This document shows positions 56,867 to 64,000 of a DNA stretch of 64,000 nucleotides, in pieces (the first letter of the stretch is position 1; the number at the start of each line of letters is the position of its first letter). The DNA is taken from the NCBI GenBank assembly GCA_944327225.1, contig CALVGZ010000001.1, forward strand, positions 62,001 through 126,000. Reading direction: 5' to 3'. Position numbers and translations under genes: made by a program. The notes under the pieces were generated by a model. That model saw only the letters and a list, made by a program, of their open reading frames with translations, was not told the DNA's origin and ran no database searches. This stretch comes from Candidatus Gastranaerophilales bacterium (GTDB lineage: Bacteria; Cyanobacteriota; Vampirovibrionia; Gastranaerophilales; Gastranaerophilaceae).

Positions 56867-58972
56867 ATGAATTTTAGTGATTTAAAAATTGAATTTACTG
56901 AATATTTAATCAGTCAAGGTATTATTTCAGAAAAAGAATATTTTTATAAAGATAACACTGCTAGTGTTTTTATGTATGCACAGGAATTTAAAGATTATCT
57001 CCATAATGAGCTTAAATGTGACACGTCTATTTATCAGGAAAGCATTTTTGATATATTAGAAATGCAGGTTATTGACGGTAAATTGGTCAACCCGGACGAA
57101 GTCGAGCAGCCAGATAGTGATGATAGCGAGGCTGGTTTAGGTCAAGTTATAGAAGGCGATGACTTTTCTTCAAGCGATTTAGATATCAATAGTACATCCG
57201 AAACAGAACAAAATCTGCAAATCGAAGAAACAGATGACAATTCAGAGATATCTATTACAACAGATGAGAATGTTTCCGCACAAGCTTCTGATGTTGATAA
57301 AAACAGTAAAGCAAATAATGATGTTTCATTATTAATGCAAAATGAATTAGGAGCTAATACAGAAGAAAATCAACTTCTTGTTGAAATATTTAACGACCTA
57401 ATCAAAGATGAGAAATTCTTAAGTGTTATTGACTTGGATTCTAGTGGTGACTTGAGTTCCGATGAACTGACTAATTTCTTTAATACTGTTAAGGATTTTG
57501 ATTCTGACGGTTCAAATGTTTCTTTGGATGATATGCTGCAAGCGATTGAAAAAATTAATGACGGGACATTTGAGTTATTGTCTGATGCAATTGAACCAAA
57601 TGATGAAATTGAAGAAACCGAAGAAATGCATCCTAATAATCAAATATCGGCTACCGGCGGTTCTGGAGGCGGTGGCGGTGGCGGAAATTATAATACAACA
57701 CCGCAAGAAAAAACACTTGATAATATGACAAAAGAAGAACTTAATGCTGAATTATCAAAAGCTCAAACCGATTATGATGAAAAAAAGAGTGTAGTTGATT
57801 CTATTTTAGACGGTTCAAACCCCGAATTAAAAGAACTCGAAAATAATATTGATACTGCTTACGAGTTATTTCAATCAGAACTTAAAAATGTAGATGAAGA
57901 AATGGCACAAAACTTAGATACCCTGAAAAAATCAATTGAAGCCAAAGAGGACGAAATAGATAAGGCTGAACAAAATATAATTAATCAGGAAGTTGTCGTT
58001 TCTGAAGCCCAAAATGCTTATGACAATGCAGTGGCTACAAGGCAGGTTTTAGAAAGTACGCTGTCATCTCTTCAACAGGTTGATACTTCAGATTTAGATT
58101 CATCGCAAAAATCAGAAATAGCCGAAAAAATAAGTACAGTTCAGACTAAGATTGAAGAAGCTAAAGAAGCGGAAGATGCTGCAAATACTACGTTGGAAAA
58201 TGAACAAGAAAATCTTGAAGAACTAAAAGAACAAAAAGAACAATTAAAAACCGGCGAAGGTGGGTTAGATGAGCTTAATGAGCAAATGACCGATTTGCAG
58301 ACACAAATTGAAGAAAAATATCCTGAAATAAAACAATATATGGATGATTATAACACTGCAAAAGAAACTTATAAAACAGAAAAGGAATCTGCTTTATCTA
58401 CTGCAAAAGCTGATATGGAAAAATCTCTTGAATATGTTAATGAAGTTCAAAGTGCAATAAATAATTCTGATAATCGAGATTTAGCTTTGAAGTACAGTTT
58501 TGACGGATTGACCGAACTAACAAGAAAAGCCGTTGAATTAGCTTATACTCAAATCGGAGTGTCCGAAACTGAAGGAAATAACAGAGGTGATAATGAAAAA
58601 TACGGTGCAGGAGCTGGTGTTGCATGGTGTGCCGCATTTGTTTCCTGGTTGTACGGAAATGGTCAAGGTAATAGCGGAAATAATCCGTTAAAATTTACGA
58701 CAAGCGTCTCTGGATTGCGTGATCAAGCTAAAGCAGCGGGCTATTATTCTGCAGTAGGAACATACACTCCTAAACCCGGAGATATCATGATTCAAAAGAG
58801 CAATGGTGCTTCACATACCGGAATAGTAGTGAAAGTAGAAGGCAATACTATATATACTATTGAGGGCAACTCCGGTAATACAGTCCGAGAAAGACATTAT
58901 ACAATTGGAGATTCAAATTACGGTAAAATTTCAGGTTGGATCAGAATGAATGAATGGAGTGCTGCAACTTAA
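56867..58972 (+). CDS. EF-hand, coiled-coil, CHAP-domain protein
   Basis: 701-aa modular protein. Residues 1-75 form a helical unit and about 80-160 an acidic low-complexity stretch. Two EF-hand loops follow (DLDSSGDLSSDE at 189-200 and DFDSDGSNVSLDD at 210-222). Then come a Gly-rich linker (about 262-275) and a long coiled coil (about 285-530). The C-terminal CHAP hydrolase (about 545-701) has likely catalytic C588 (AWCAAFVSW), H650 (SHTGIV) and N668 (IEGNSG). CHAP enzymes cut peptidoglycan peptides or amides. There is no signal peptide, so the export route is unclear. Confidence 0.82.
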   Translation: MNFSDLKIEFTEYLISQGIISEKEYFYKDNTASVFMYAQEFKDYLHNELKCDTSIYQESIFDILEMQVIDGKLVNPDEVEQPDSDDSEAGLGQVIEGDDFSSSDLDINSTSETEQNLQIEETDDNSEISITTDENVSAQASDVDKNSKANNDVSLLMQNELGANTEENQLLVEIFNDLIKDEKFLSVIDLDSSGDLSSDELTNFFNTVKDFDSDGSNVSLDDMLQAIEKINDGTFELLSDAIEPNDEIEETEEMHPNNQISATGGSGGGGGGGNYNTTPQEKTLDNMTKEELNAELSKAQTDYDEKKSVVDSILDGSNPELKELENNIDTAYELFQSELKNVDEEMAQNLDTLKKSIEAKEDEIDKAEQNIINQEVVVSEAQNAYDNAVATRQVLESTLSSLQQVDTSDLDSSQKSEIAEKISTVQTKIEEAKEAEDAANTTLENEQENLEELKEQKEQLKTGEGGLDELNEQMTDLQTQIEEKYPEIKQYMDDYNTAKETYKTEKESALSTAKADMEKSLEYVNEVQSAINNSDNRDLALKYSFDGLTELTRKAVELAYTQIGVSETEGNNRGDNEKYGAGAGVAWCAAFVSWLYGNGQGNSGNNPLKFTTSVSGLRDQAKAAGYYSAVGTYTPKPGDIMIQKSNGASHTGIVVKVEGNTIYTIEGNSGNTVRERHYTIGDSNYGKISGWIRMNEWSAAT

Positions 58973-58974
58973 AT

Positions 58975-60273
58975 TTAAAAACTTGATCCAATATATTCAA
59001 ATCCGTATTTTGTAAGCTCATTTTTATCATATAAATTTCTACCGTCAAATATAATTGGGTTTTTTAGTAATGACTTAATTTTATTAAAATCCGGAGTACG
59101 AAATTCGTTCCATTCTGTAAATATAATAAGAGCATCAGAATTTTTTAAAACCGCTAATGAGTTATTTTTATATTCAATCTGTTTTTTAAAAATATTTTTT
59201 GCAGTACTTATCGCCATCGGATCAAATGCTTTTATTTTTGCACCTTTTGCTATTAATTCATTAATAATATCTATAGATGGAGCTTCTCTCATATCATTTG
59301 TTCCTGGTTTAAAAGACAATCCCCATACAGAAAATATTTTGCCCGATATATTTTGATTAAATCTGTTGTAAATTTTTTTAAGAAATAATTTTCTTTGAAG
59401 TAAATTAACTTTCTTTACTGAATTTATAATTTCAAGATTACAATTTTGTTCTTTACCCATTTTAATTAGAGCATTAATATCTTTTGGAAAGCAACTTCCT
59501 CCAAAACCAATTCCAAAATTTAAAAATTTATCACCTATTCTTAAGTCGGAAGCAATGCCTTGTTTTACTTTGTGCATATCGGCACCAAATTTTTCACATA
59601 AATTTGCAATCTCGTTTATAAAAGATATTTTTGATGCCAGAAAGGCATTTGAAGCATATTTTGCAAGTTCTGCTGATTTTGTATCCATGGTAATTAGCTT
59701 ATCAGACTCAAATAAAAATGGACCGTATATATCTTTCATGATTTTGATAGCTTTTTGTGAATCCGTACCAATGATAATTCTGTCAGGATTTAAAAAATTT
59801 CTTATCGCACTTCCTTGACTCAAAAACTCAGGGTTTGAAACAATATCGAATTCAACAGATGTAATAGATTTAATAAAAGTCTTTATTTTGTATGTAGTTC
59901 CGACAGGTGTCGTAGATTTATTTACAATCACCTTGTAATCTTTTATTGAATTGGCAATTAGTTCCGCAACAGCGAACAAATGGCTCAAATCACAGTTTCC
60001 ATCTTTTTTTTGCGGTGTACCAACAGTTATAAAACATACATTTGATTTTTGTATTGCATTTTTTATATCAGTTGTAAAAAATAATCGTTTTTTGATTAAA
60101 TTAGAATTTACAATTTCAGAAATTCCGGGTTCAAATATTGATATTATACCTTTAGATAGATTATTTATTTTTGCTGAATCTATATCGCAACAATATACTT
60201 CATGACCAATATCCGCAAAACATGCACCAATCGTAAGCCCGACATAACCAGTTCCAATTACGCAAATTTTCAT
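58975..60273 (-). CDS. ugd: UDP-glucose 6-dehydrogenase
   Basis: 432-aa NAD enzyme oxidising UDP-glucose to UDP-glucuronate for capsule or LPS sugars. The N-terminal CVIGTGYVGLTIGACFADIG, the middle KSTTPVGT (about 120) and the catalytic-Cys motif GIGFGGSCFPKDINALI are intact. WGLSFKPGTNDMREAPS marks the UDP-binding domain. An AGGAG box precedes the ATG. It is in line with the nucleotidyltransferase and GT2 genes upstream. Confidence 0.96.
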   Translation of the reverse strand: MKICVIGTGYVGLTIGACFADIGHEVYCCDIDSAKINNLSKGIISIFEPGISEIVNSNLIKKRLFFTTDIKNAIQKSNVCFITVGTPQKKDGNCDLSHLFAVAELIANSIKDYKVIVNKSTTPVGTTYKIKTFIKSITSVEFDIVSNPEFLSQGSAIRNFLNPDRIIIGTDSQKAIKIMKDIYGPFLFESDKLITMDTKSAELAKYASNAFLASKISFINEIANLCEKFGADMHKVKQGIASDLRIGDKFLNFGIGFGGSCFPKDINALIKMGKEQNCNLEIINSVKKVNLLQRKLFLKKIYNRFNQNISGKIFSVWGLSFKPGTNDMREAPSIDIINELIAKGAKIKAFDPMAISTAKNIFKKQIEYKNNSLAVLKNSDALIIFTEWNEFRTPDFNKIKSLLKNPIIFDGRNLYDKNELTKYGFEYIGSSF

Positions 60274-60291: not shown

Positions 60292-61422
60292 TTATATGTC
60301 ATATTTCTTATTTTTTAAATCTTTTATAAATAAATTAATTAATTTTGGATATTTTGATATTATTTTTAATAATTGGTATTTTGGTTTTAATTTCATATAA
60401 CTAATTATTTGTTTACGGTTTTTTAGCAAATCTTTTAATTTGATTGCTCTGCATTTATTTCTTAATTCACTTAAATAATAATGTTTGAATAAAACTTTTG
60501 TAAAATAACTTTCATCTATATTATTCAACTCTATAATTTCAAATATATTATCTGGTAATATATTTTTTGAAATATTGTTAATGAATTTTATTGCACTTTT
60601 GATATGTGAGTCCGTTGATGTTTTTTTAATGTTATATTTAACGATACTCCAATCAAAATCGGTTTTTGATTCCAAAAAATATTTGCAATCAAATAATGAA
60701 TATAATATTGCCGACTTACTGGTTGATTCTCTAAGATTTCTAGATAAATTTATCAGAGTAATAAACATTAAATCTTCAAAGCATGGTACCAGAGATTTTA
60801 CACCAAAAACATTTTTAATTGTTGCTCTTTTAAATAAATCATCTAAAAAATTTTGTTCATTTTTTGTTCCCATGCTAATAAATCTATGTATATCAATAGC
60901 ATTGCGGCCAGTTTTTTTATCGTGTAAATCAACAGAATGATAATCAATTTTTTCGTAATAATAGCCAAGGGGCATAATTAAATTAATTGCTTTCATAAAG
61001 TCTCTTTTTTGCAATAAAAAATCTACATCACCCATTATTCTTGGCATATCTTGTCTAAGATACTTCATTGCCAGACCTTTTAATATAAGCGGATAAATTC
61101 CATTTTCGTTAAGGACTTTCCCTGCCTTAATAAACGGTGTAATTATGACAAGATTATTTATTCTGTATTTGTTGCATATTTCTTTTAATTTCGAATTCAA
61201 ATTTGTGTTAATAAATAAATCAGGACAGACTTTTTGCAAATATATTAATAATAGTATTTTAGAATCATCACAATCATATTTATTCCAATTATTTATTAAT
61301 AAATCAACGTCATTTTTAGTAGTGTTATTTAAGAAAGCATACTCAATTAGTTTTTTTTCATCTTTAGATATAAATTCATTGCAATAATTTTCCGTTAAGA
61401 TATTACTTGCAGTATTTAACAT
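60292..61422 (-). CDS. Nucleotidyltransferase of NTP_transf_5 family (intact active site)
   Basis: 376 aa. The polymerase-beta-type active site is complete: K115-G116 in PLILKGLAM, D132 and D134 in MGDVDFLL, and D177 in NAIDIHRF. The second half is helical and ends in a basic tail. NTP_transf_5 proteins occur in polysaccharide and RiPP gene sets, where some add nucleotides or phosphates; the substrate is unknown. A GGGGTGAG site precedes the ATG. It is a paralogue of the plus-strand protein at 62206. Confidence 0.83.
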   Translation of the reverse strand: MLNTASNILTENYCNEFISKDEKKLIEYAFLNNTTKNDVDLLINNWNKYDCDDSKILLLIYLQKVCPDLFINTNLNSKLKEICNKYRINNLVIITPFIKAGKVLNENGIYPLILKGLAMKYLRQDMPRIMGDVDFLLQKRDFMKAINLIMPLGYYYEKIDYHSVDLHDKKTGRNAIDIHRFISMGTKNEQNFLDDLFKRATIKNVFGVKSLVPCFEDLMFITLINLSRNLRESTSKSAILYSLFDCKYFLESKTDFDWSIVKYNIKKTSTDSHIKSAIKFINNISKNILPDNIFEIIELNNIDESYFTKVLFKHYYLSELRNKCRAIKLKDLLKNRKQIISYMKLKPKYQLLKIISKYPKLINLFIKDLKNKKYDI

Positions 61423-61458
61423 CTCACCCCGCTTATATTTATCAAAGTGTATTTATAA

Positions 61459-62118
61459 TTATCTTTTTATTAATTTGTCTCTTAATATTTTTGCATAGTC
61501 TTTGTATTCATCTTTTTGGTTTGTTATCCCAAAGTTATTATCATGGATTCTTCGATTGCATGTAATAAAATCAGCTCGATGAATTGATAAACCATGAATA
61601 TCTAATCTTTGAATTAAATCTATTACATCGCCTGTAATCGTGTCTTCTCTGAATAAACCGATTATATCAAAAATTTCTTTTTTAAATAATGTTGAACCTG
61701 TTAGAATATTAGAAAAAGGTTCCGGATTTGTAAATTTTTTTCTGTGCGGAGTATCAGGAGAGCAAAAATTTTTTATTTTTGCCATGACAATTTTATATTC
61801 TTCATTTTTTTGCATTTCATCGTATAGCATTTCTAAAGCATTATCGACCAATAAATCATCTTGATCAATTGTTAACCAATAATTGCCTTTAGATAAATTT
61901 ATGCCTCTGTTTTTTCCCGCCATTTGACCTTTTTGAGCTTCATTTATATATACCCTGCATCCCATTGACGCTGCAATTTTTGCAGTATTATCACTACTTA
62001 AATCATCTATAACAATAATTTCATGATTAAAATTTTGCTTTTGAATACTGCAAATTGTTTCTTCTATATATTTTTCGCCGTTGAATGTCGGTATTGTAAT
62101 TGATATTAAATCATTCAT
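61459..62118 (-). CDS. Family 2 glycosyltransferase
   Basis: 219-aa GT-A-fold transferase. The start ITIPTFNGEKYIEETICSIQ, the donor region IIVIDDLSSDNTAKIAASMG and the DXD-type metal motif DQDDLL (about 84-89) are all present. It lacks a membrane segment and any acceptor domain beyond the core. Only weak ribosome-site sequence (AAAGAAAGAA) precedes the ATG. It is the first gene of the minus-strand group GT2, nucleotidyltransferase, ugd. Confidence 0.9.
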   Translation of the reverse strand: MNDLISITIPTFNGEKYIEETICSIQKQNFNHEIIVIDDLSSDNTAKIAASMGCRVYINEAQKGQMAGKNRGINLSKGNYWLTIDQDDLLVDNALEMLYDEMQKNEEYKIVMAKIKNFCSPDTPHRKKFTNPEPFSNILTGSTLFKKEIFDIIGLFREDTITGDVIDLIQRLDIHGLSIHRADFITCNRRIHDNNFGITNQKDEYKDYAKILRDKLIKR

Positions 62119-62205
62119 AGTATTCTTTCTTTTAAATTAAATTAGCATATAAATTAAATTTATATTTTTATTATATAATAAAAATACAGTTACAAAAAAA
62201 TAATC

Positions 62206-63396
62206 ATGAAACAAGAAATTTTATATAAAAAAGAAATAGAAAATATACATAAAACTGAGTATTTCAAAAAAGATATTAAAATTACGGACGCACTAATTGA
62301 GAATTTTTTTGACAATATTTTGGGCATGGAAGAAAAACTCTTATTAAAATTAATACTGACTAAAACCCCAGCTCAAAAGGATTTAGATAAATTATTGCAA
62401 ATATGGGATATTGAAAAAAAATCCGGAGCAAAATCATTATTGCTTTCTCATCTTTTAAAAACAAACCCTGATTTAAAAGCTACTCAATACGAGGAAGGTC
62501 GTCTAAAGGGATTAATTTTAAATCAAAGATTTATAAATATAAATACTTTTTCTCATTTTAAAAAAATTACTGCTAAATTAAATCAAGAAAACATTGTTCC
62601 GCTTATTTTTAATGAAGCCTTAATCAAAGTCATAAATCCAAATTTTCCAAGATATATAAATTACATTGATTTAATGATTTTAAATAATGATTGCCAAAAA
62701 GTATTAAAAATTATCAAATCATTAAATTACAATGTTAAAAAAGATAATCAAAACAAATTAAATGTTTATGAATCCGAAAATTCAGAAAAGCCGATTTTGA
62801 ATATTCATAATACATTTTTTTTGAATGCAAAAAATCAAAATAAATTAGTTAAAAATATATTTAAAAGGGCAAAAATTACTAATATTTATAATATCAGAAC
62901 TTATACCCCCTGCCTTGAAGATATTTTATTTATTTTATTTATAAATATTTCTGATAATTTGCGTTGCAATAAAAGTTATGCTGATTTATTAAATAAAATT
63001 TTGGATTGTCATTTCATTCTCAATGAAAACAATGACATTAATTGGGATATTATTCTTGAAAACTCTAAATTAACCGGTTTTGAAGTTAAAATTAATATCG
63101 CAGTTAACTTTATAAATAAAATTATAGGAAAAATTATTCCCGATAAATTATTTTTTGAAAAAGAAGCAATTGATTATTCAAATATGGTATTGTTTGAAAA
63201 TTTTTACTATATAAAATTACAAAAAGAATGCAGAAATCTAAAAATTTTAAATGTTATAAAAAAACCGCTTTTAATTAAAAAATATATAATTTTAAAATCA
63301 AAATACAAATTTTTGAAATTGCTGAATAATCATCCAAAATTAATCAAATTATTAATAAAAGACATATCAAAAATATACGACAAACAGGAATTTTAA
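62206..63396 (+). CDS. Degenerate NTP_transf_5 nucleotidyltransferase paralogue
   Basis: 396 aa, clearly related along its length to the 60292 gene: FKRAKITNIYNIRTYTPCLE matches FKRATIKNVFGVKSLVPCFE, and KYKFLKLLNNHPKLIKLLIK matches KYQLLKIISKYPKLINLFIK. Active-site residues are largely lost. PLILKG has become PLIFNE (K to N136), GDVD has become NYID (first Asp to Y153), and IDIH has become LNIH (Asp to N199). It is likely a binding or scaffold pseudoenzyme. It stops one codon before the next ATG. Confidence 0.75.
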   Translation: MKQEILYKKEIENIHKTEYFKKDIKITDALIENFFDNILGMEEKLLLKLILTKTPAQKDLDKLLQIWDIEKKSGAKSLLLSHLLKTNPDLKATQYEEGRLKGLILNQRFININTFSHFKKITAKLNQENIVPLIFNEALIKVINPNFPRYINYIDLMILNNDCQKVLKIIKSLNYNVKKDNQNKLNVYESENSEKPILNIHNTFFLNAKNQNKLVKNIFKRAKITNIYNIRTYTPCLEDILFILFINISDNLRCNKSYADLLNKILDCHFILNENNDINWDIILENSKLTGFEVKINIAVNFINKIIGKIIPDKLFFEKEAIDYSNMVLFENFYYIKLQKECRNLKILNVIKKPLLIKKYIILKSKYKFLKLLNNHPKLIKLLIKDISKIYDKQEF

Positions 63397-64000
63397 ATGA
63401 GGATTACAAATTTAGATAAAATTGAGATAGTAGAAGTTTTTAAAAGCATAAATAAATATGCTTTTTCTCGAGATATTAGATGGATTAAATACGTTGATTT
63501 AGGAATAAAGGTAATAAGAATAATTAGTTTTAGCGATGAATTTTTACCTTTAGTTGAAAAACAACTAACATTGGTATTAAAAGATTACTCGGATAGCTAT
63601 GATGATACGATAGTTTTATTAAATGAACAAAATTATCTTCCCTTTCTAAAAGAAATTATAGAAAACAATCAAAAGATAAACACAAGAATAAAATTTGAAA
63701 AAATATATAAAAAAGCAAACGGTGTAAAGGATGTAAACGAAAATACCTTATACGATATACAAATTATAGATAAGGACTTTTCAAATTTAAAACCTATAAT
63801 AGATTTTCAATCGACACGTGGTTTTTTTGTTGCAAATGATATTGAAAATAACATATATTACTATAATGCACCTGATTTATCGCCTGAAGAATTTATAAAA
63901 GAAGGACACATATTTGTTCAAATTTTTTATAACATTTTAAAAACAAAGACCTCAAATTTGGTGCATGGTGCGGTAATAGGCTGCAAAAATAATGGTATAT
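63397..64000 (+). CDS. HPr kinase-like protein (3' partial)
   Basis: 201 codons are open to the window end; the gene continues beyond it. The sequence NLVHGAVIGCKNNGI at the very end matches the strand just before the P-loop in HprK-related kinases (form HxAAVxxxGxGVLF). The Walker A itself would lie outside. The preceding 185 residues (starting MRITNLDKIE, with IDFQSTRGFFVANDI) form an N-terminal domain. It starts directly after the degenerate nucleotidyltransferase (TAAATG). The kinase call is probable, not proven. Confidence 0.6.
   Translation, partial: MRITNLDKIEIVEVFKSINKYAFSRDIRWIKYVDLGIKVIRIISFSDEFLPLVEKQLTLVLKDYSDSYDDTIVLLNEQNYLPFLKEIIENNQKINTRIKFEKIYKKANGVKDVNENTLYDIQIIDKDFSNLKPIIDFQSTRGFFVANDIENNIYYYNAPDLSPEEFIKEGHIFVQIFYNILKTKTSNLVHGAVIGCKNNGI

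Follow-up and report, generated by a model that had tools for sequence, protein, structure and literature searches.

RiPP recognition elements (RREs; RiPP, ribosomally synthesized and post-translationally modified peptide) are thought to capture leader peptides that belong to separate precursors. In the closest described systems, namely the paeninodin-like lasso peptides, pseudomycoidin, and the pathways for linear polyphosphorylated peptides (LPP) reported from Bacillota, an RRE is accompanied by an HprK-like kinase and a nucleotidyltransferase homologue, and the kinases PadeK, PsmK, and LppK place one or more phosphates on Ser (PMC9266682, PMC13381572). In pseudomycoidin, the phosphorylated Ser receives a hexose, which is added or enabled by PsmN (PMC9266682). 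Here we describe a related module at the right end of a 64,000-nucleotide stretch (the window; contig CALVGZ010000001.1, positions 62,001 to 126,000) of a Candidatus Gastranaerophilales genome; the host is a gut relative of the Cyanobacteria and is non-photosynthetic. The module consists of genes for an NTP_transf_5 nucleotidyltransferase (N), an HprK-like kinase (K), and a PqqD-like RRE protein (P), and P seems to carry a leader of its own.

With the paeninodin-like and pseudomycoidin systems the module shares the His-Lys-Asp-Asp quartet of the kinase, the nucleotidyltransferase homologue, and the PqqD-type RRE (B1) (PMC9266682). With LPP it shares a discrete RRE, the HprK-like kinase, the NTP transferase, and a position inside polysaccharide loci, but the MsbA-like exporter of the LPP core set occurs only in some members, and the module is spread over many phyla (PMC13381572). 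It is best read as a new variant of the paeninodin/LPP-type machinery. The module is widespread and, it appears, undescribed; a search limited to open-licence papers gave no description of it or of an RRE with its DPIH-containing tail.

A module of nucleotidyltransferase, kinase, and RRE genes

The source genome (1.73 Mb in 29 contigs, 99.8% complete) contains the window as C1:62001-126000. An initial annotation, made from the letters alone, had listed an intact and a degenerate NTP_transf_5 enzyme, a glycosyltransferase of family 2 (GT2), a UDP-glucose dehydrogenase, and the start of an HprK-like kinase, and all of them were confirmed by profile scores. Both NTP_transf_5 proteins exceed the Pfam gathering score of 31.2 bits (PF14907). 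The active-type copy N2 (60292-61422, minus strand; 70 bits), the proposed catalytic partner, keeps the KG, GDVD, and DIH motifs, and the cassette copy N1 (62206-63396, plus strand; 45 bits), a proposed pseudoenzyme or scaffold, has lost the catalytic motif and reads NE / Y.D / NIH. The GT2 gene (61459-62118, minus strand; PF00535, 90 bits) encodes 219 aa with the C-terminus RRIH..N.G....EYKDYAKILR..L. The N-terminal part of K occupies 63397-64000 (plus strand; TIGR04355, E = 1e-6).

The contig continues to the right, and was extended by 32 kb (stretch L003), gene starts being taken as longest open reading frame (ORF) calls. The window edge lies 3 residues ahead of the kinase P-loop. Full-length K has 514 aa (L003:7398-8942, plus strand) and ends outside the window at C1:126941, window coordinate 64941. 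P (156 aa; L003:8920-9390, window coordinates 64919-65389) lies wholly outside, and the start of its gene overlaps the 3′ end of K by 23 bp. The annotation had pointed to the right-hand flank for a PqqD-like RRE, and two were found just past the edge, P and a C-terminal domain of K; the kinase P-loop, which it had proposed to check, is also present.

In the 514-aa frame, H190, the P-loop ARGQRGKS (205-212), D228, and D229 supply the His-Lys-Asp-Asp set that is reported to be essential in lasso-peptide kinases (PMC9266682). Across 75 homologues, H190, K211, and D228 were invariant and D229 almost so. We count the retention of this set as support for RiPP-type machinery, and the earlier assignment of kinase and nucleotidyltransferase to the paeninodin-like kind was borne out. 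HprK_rel_A, HprK_rel_B, and ScmC/ScmD (SynChlorMet) resemble the system as distant HprK-like kinases and PqqD-like chaperones, but the scores are far under their cut-offs, at 22-28 versus 200 bits (HprK_rel_A, 22.1 bits, and HprK_rel_B, 27.7 bits, for K; NCBIfam cut-off) and 18.5 versus 100 bits, respectively. With Hpr_kinase_C (PF07475), K scores 16.3 bits, below the Pfam gathering score of 33.3, and the genome has no match to this profile at E 0.001. The AlphaFold2 model of K (predicted local distance difference test [pLDDT] 93.8) has an HPr kinase fold at residues 184-384 (Z 13.3, rmsd 2.8, 136 aligned). The C-terminal 120 residues were matched by the P profile at 1e-20; in Gastranaerophilales, K is a fusion of the kinase with a further RRE-like domain that lacks the DPIH tail. 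In the spirochaete locus L117, a tail-less PqqD-like gene stands separately after the kinase.

A scan returned 256 confirmed relatives, the best 80 of which were examined as loci; about 95 loci were compared in total, some being the same contig fetched twice. The best 80 of 256 came from Gastranaerophilales, Bacteroidales, Spirochaetes, Desulfovibrio, Planctomycetota, Verrucomicrobiales, and photosynthetic Cyanobacteria, as well as Ruminococcaceae/Saccharofermentans, Chloroflexota, and Geobacteraceae. N, K, and P were adjacent in nearly all loci, in many phyla including Bacillota, with the order N-K-P in gut forms and often P-K or N-P-K in environmental forms. The kinase has a patchy distribution within the genus (12 of 28 genomes), and NTP_transf_5 tracks it exactly: nine genomes had both and 13 had neither (n = 22 tested for both; Fisher p = 2e-6). 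Because the phyletic patterns of N and K match and the arrangement recurs across phyla, the co-localization is not due to chance. A GT2 of 220-235 aa with the C-terminus RR[IVL]H..N......YA..LR was present in 60 loci, including the window gene at 61459-62118; among the 54 compared loci with at least 5 kb downstream, 43 had it. These comparisons show that N, K, and P form a conserved module heading a variable surface-glycan cluster, with the small GT2 as a proposed fourth member, and the surface or capsule setting of the initial annotation agrees with this position. We are highly confident that the module is real and of RiPP ancestry.

A complete compact module is found on the closed 44-kb plasmid pCRI9333.04 of Crinalium epipsammum (NC_019735.1, L168 5896-17248), in the order P, N, HPr kinase, FkbM, GT2, oxidoreductase, GT2, SMP-30, TPR, second N, and ABC transporter. 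The plasmid is mobilizable and comes from a cultured cyanobacterium; carrying two NTP_transf_5 genes as well as one for an ABC exporter, it offers a practical test system. In environmental cyanobacterial loci (for example, L073:4092-5501; L077:14023-15492; L168:12780-14180), TPR-type proteins of 440-490 aa that share a similar C-terminus (YFL.SF..SEVY) are repeatedly encoded near the cassette.

When the window species was compared with genome G013 of the same genus, N and K showed about 65-76% DNA identity, and the stretch that begins at the K/P junction and covers the first glycan genes was mostly 92-99% identical. P itself is 99% identical and K 67%. The jump from about 70% to 92-99% falls at L003:8870-9160, aligned with the reverse strand of L029, and we therefore conclude that the glycan block headed by P was recently exchanged between two Gastranaerophilales species. 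In the N tree, Bacteroidales and proteobacterial sequences are interspersed among those of Gastranaerophilales, which points to horizontal transfer.

The RRE protein, its tail, and the search for a precursor

The first 90 residues of P are a lasso-type RRE, with PDB profile matches to TbiB1 (1e-14), PbaB1 (9x90; 1.5e-9), TfuB1, and LppB (9x8z). The P model most closely matched the leader-bound structures of TbiB1 and TfuB1 (Z 10.6-11.1). Descent from lasso-type RRE proteins is the best explanation of these similarities. P matches the discrete PqqD-type RRE but, unlike lasso B1, has a C-terminal tail. This tail, with the consensus [YF]xD..xLLxxDPIHxV…GW, is the most conserved part of the protein: in 80 homologues, L120, D123, P124, I125, H126, and G133 were invariant and F106, D115, V128, and W134 nearly so, although the DPIH conservation among these loci is partly due to selection because the contig scan pattern, [ED]LL[LAT][AL]DPIH, contained DPIH. 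An unselected profile search and a plasmid tblastn also returned full-length homologues bearing DPIH, in Cyanobacteria.

Ahead of DPIH, the tail contains a leader-like segment. In 23 of 24 environmental P proteins, FxxPx[LIV] stands exactly 18 residues before DPIH, against a mean of 0.34 after shuffling of 45 residues, a control that disregards relatedness and treats related sequences as independent. Biochemistry and crystallography have established that the motif class [Y/W]xxPx[L/V/I/F/A] binds lasso and LPP RREs (PMC13381572). In the model of P, residues 101-110 have a mean pLDDT of 94, a strand is placed at 110-113, and DPIH...GW has a pLDDT of 51-59 and is probably free. The motif and the model together suggest that P is an RRE carrying its own leader in cis, with the groove apparently occupied by its own tail. 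Since the leader-like segment would be supplied in cis, no separate leader peptide would be needed.

We then compared the genome with the lasso and LPP pathways. The whole genome had no match to the B2 transglutaminase-like leader peptidase (PF13471) or to the SipW-like signal peptidase (TIGR02228, which matched 8 of 14 controls), and a search with the P profile found no RREs in it beyond P and the K domain. These absences indicate that the system is neither a lasso nor an LPP pathway: the lasso cluster considered in the initial annotation was rejected for want of B2, and LPP for want of a SipW-type peptidase. No asparagine-synthetase-like macrolactam synthetase was recognized among the scanned right-hand genes, the family not having been searched genome-wide. 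Lasso-type clusters were seen in other genomes. One, in G150 of the same class (L085:1227-7032), has an HprK-like kinase, a short precursor-like ORF, a B2-like gene, and two asparagine-synthetase-like genes. Another, in the photosynthetic cyanobacterium G344 (L084:3129-4529), has three near-identical tandem lasso-type precursors (SYTAPKLTVHGNVADITQ) beside HprK-like kinase, PqqD-like, B2-like, and asparagine-synthetase-like genes.

A precursor was sought as well. No conserved precursor ORF of 20-124 aa, the kind of short ORF that the annotation had suggested looking for, was found near the cassette in about 95 loci. When 1671 short ORFs lying outside large genes were compared all against all, the matches were limited to strain-level or repeat-type ones, and a hidden precursor beside the cassette was rejected. 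The LPP precursor has the motif YxxPxVLxHQxIxFETxxS, which was not searched genome-wide; near the cassette there was no conserved short ORF, and in environmental members a FxxPx[LIV] motif lies within P instead. The system contrasts with paeninodin and pseudomycoidin in the missing B2 gene and in a cluster without a visible macrolactam synthetase or precursor. It differs from LPP in the missing SipW-type peptidase and separate precursor, in the RRE tail with its own leader motif, and in its pairing of dead and active NTP transferases.

These results bear on the possibility that the acceptor is a separate peptide or protein, encoded away from the cluster and brought in by P or the RRE domain of K, in which case the pathway would be of the usual RiPP type but have its precursor gene at an unlinked site. 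The RRE and kinase are homologous to those of the paeninodin and LPP systems, and such a peptide could be bound by the second RRE, which has no tail and is part of K in Gastranaerophilales but encoded on its own in L117. We consider this unlikely, however, given the lack of a conserved short ORF across the loci and the complete set on the Crinalium plasmid with no annotated precursor beside it.

No exporter was seen adjoining the cassette in this genome. Of 54 gut-type loci, 7 have an ABC exporter, as does the Crinalium plasmid. Downstream of P in the gut-type loci, 7 of 307 genes encode proteins with at least four predicted transmembrane segments, all of them ABC exporters. Over all loci, such proteins were fewer downstream (15/494) than upstream (36/403; p = 2e-4). 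Wzx/Wzy or lipid-primed capsule clusters have in common with the present one the glycosyltransferases, methyltransferases, UDP-glucose dehydrogenase, and dTDP-rhamnose genes, but the module has a RiPP-type kinase and RRE and few polytopic proteins beside it. Such a downstream region is unlike a Wzx/Wzy-built cluster, though Wzx/Wzy genes could sit elsewhere. A 'YYLFGFIP' motif in cluster enzymes was rejected as a docking tag, as it was not enriched downstream (8/360) relative to upstream (9/392).

Paired nucleotidyltransferases

Among 90 NTP_transf_5 proteins from module loci, the catalytic G and D.D were kept in 70, lost in 19, and half-way in one. A few long-branch cases aside, the dead copies belong to at least three distinct clades, one of Bacillota, one of Cyanobacteria, and one made up of the window's species and two sister species. 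The dead copy is the N closest to K and P in Bacillota, in many of the cyanobacterial loci, and in the clade of the window. An active N was also present within the fetched stretch in 15 of 19 dead-N loci and in the half-degenerate L030 locus. Whole-genome searches of four cyanobacteria located active N 4-13 kb from dead N, including those of loci L070 and L076, which had at first seemed partnerless. The Crinalium plasmid, examined later, agrees with this: its N1 is dead and its N2 active. A sequence search for a solved NTP_transf_5 structure found none.

In the window, N2 groups with the intact copies of sister species. The frame of dead N1 is open in three species, with a dN/dS of about 0.2-0.3, like that of the intact copy, dS being near saturation. 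Recurrent loss, a nearby active copy, and an open frame with low dN/dS are together best explained if degenerate N is a pseudoenzyme that has been kept alongside an active partner. The term 'degenerate paralogue' in the initial annotation is accurate as to motif loss but not as to decay. A functionless decaying duplicate would account for the lost catalytic residues; it is very improbable in view of the constraint on the frame, the separate origin of the same arrangement in Cyanobacteria and Bacillota, and its presence on a plasmid.

Proposed function and genomic surroundings

We propose, with about even confidence, that the module is a RiPP-derived phospho-glycan tailoring system in which the tail of P itself serves as a docking handle. 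The leader-like segment would fill the peptide groove, and the rest of the tail (LLxxDPIHxVxxxxGW) would project as a fixed handle for K and N. By analogy with PadeK, PsmK, and LppK, K would phosphorylate an acceptor, and by analogy with PsmN, active N would add a nucleotidyl or hexosyl group onto the acceptor phosphate. The small GT2 and other glycosyltransferases may then lengthen the chain in the cytoplasm, and in some members an MsbA-like ABC exporter may export it. Degenerate N beside K would be kept for its place in the complex, with the second N doing the catalysis. Candidates for the acceptor are a non-conserved site on P, a protein whose gene lies elsewhere, and a glycan, each held with low confidence. 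The gene set at the head of a glycan cluster hints that sugar chains are built on a phosphorylated carrier, not the usual lipid. The sequences show the module and its recurrence, the leader-like tail, the dead/active pairing of N, and, within the data searched, the lack of lasso and LPP peptidases and of a precursor; from them we infer the chemistry, the part of the tail in docking, and both that an acceptor exists and what kind it might be.

Several observations weigh against this proposal. Gut-type tails, including that of the window's P, have lost the leader-motif Pro (0/59) while keeping the aromatic residue (F106), and we infer the seating of strand 110-113 in the groove from the model. 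Among NTP transferases that have been tested in RRE pathways, the closest, LppN, was inactive in its heterologous host (PMC13381572). No Ser or Thr is invariant in the 80 P homologues, and the L117 protein has no Ser, Thr, or Tyr at all after GW. Finally, the kinase could act on a sugar. K would then be a sugar kinase, N a sugar-nucleotide pyrophosphorylase for an unusual capsule NDP-sugar, and P an assembly factor only, which would suit a module always found beside glycosyltransferases and nucleotide-sugar genes. This explanation is slightly more doubtful than an unlinked precursor: K and P belong to RiPP-type families, an RRE-binding motif in the tail has no reason in sugar activation, and a dead N paired with an active one is unexpected of a pyrophosphorylase.

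The lack of a conserved hydroxyl residue also bears on whether P itself is the modified substrate, with RRE, leader, and core in one chain and K and N modifying the DPIHxVxxxxGW tail. The modified tail would then be a glycan-bearing protein carrier or a conserved-core product, as in PQQ or mycofactocin. The leader-like motif in cis, the strong conservation of the tail, and the failure to find a separate precursor are all consistent with this, and clusters almost without polytopic proteins make a soluble carrier plausible. Known kinases of this kind act on Ser, however, and Thr or Tyr variants were not phosphorylated by LppK (PMC13381572). A tail without conserved Ser/Thr is thus an unlikely acceptor for a Ser kinase, and was rejected as a Ser/Thr phospho-acceptor. 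The invariant Asp of DPIH, which stands 18 residues from the aromatic residue, as does the phosphorylated Ser in LPP precursors, was not used, since the count runs through a flexible stretch. Overall, P as substrate is possible but rather unlikely. We hold just as tentatively the broader idea that P is a natural RRE-leader-core fusion serving as a reusable protein carrier: a kinase and a nucleotidyltransferase of RiPP type would prime it, or an acceptor that it presents, via phosphate, and cytoplasmic glycosyltransferases would build surface glycan on it, replacing the undecaprenyl-phosphate carrier in many phyla.

If the docking-handle proposal is true, an RRE with its own leader and a near-invariant tail would show peptide-natural-product machinery turned into a general assembly tool, which in cyanobacteria and gut bacteria apparently serves surface glycans. 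Such an RRE would account for the missing precursors in PqqD/HprK/nucleotidyltransferase sets near polysaccharide genes, and a pseudoenzyme partner would be the reason for paired active and dead NTP_transf_5 proteins.

To the right of P, the cluster continues with an FkbM methyltransferase, three GT2-like genes, a DUF1796 protein, a methyltransferase, and DUF4422, followed by two transketolase-like halves, an aldo/keto reductase, and dTDP-rhamnose genes, the last groups of genes being recognized from translations. On the other side, the cassette is flanked by the UDP-glucose 6-dehydrogenase gene for nucleotide-sugar supply (58975-60273, minus strand; TIGR03026, 445 bits), which also adjoins the cassette in L029. 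Beside the glycan cluster, the gene at 56867-58972 encodes a protein of 701 aa in which a long stretch is coiled-coil-like and the C-terminal segment resembles a CHAP amidase, and its homologue holds the same place in L029.

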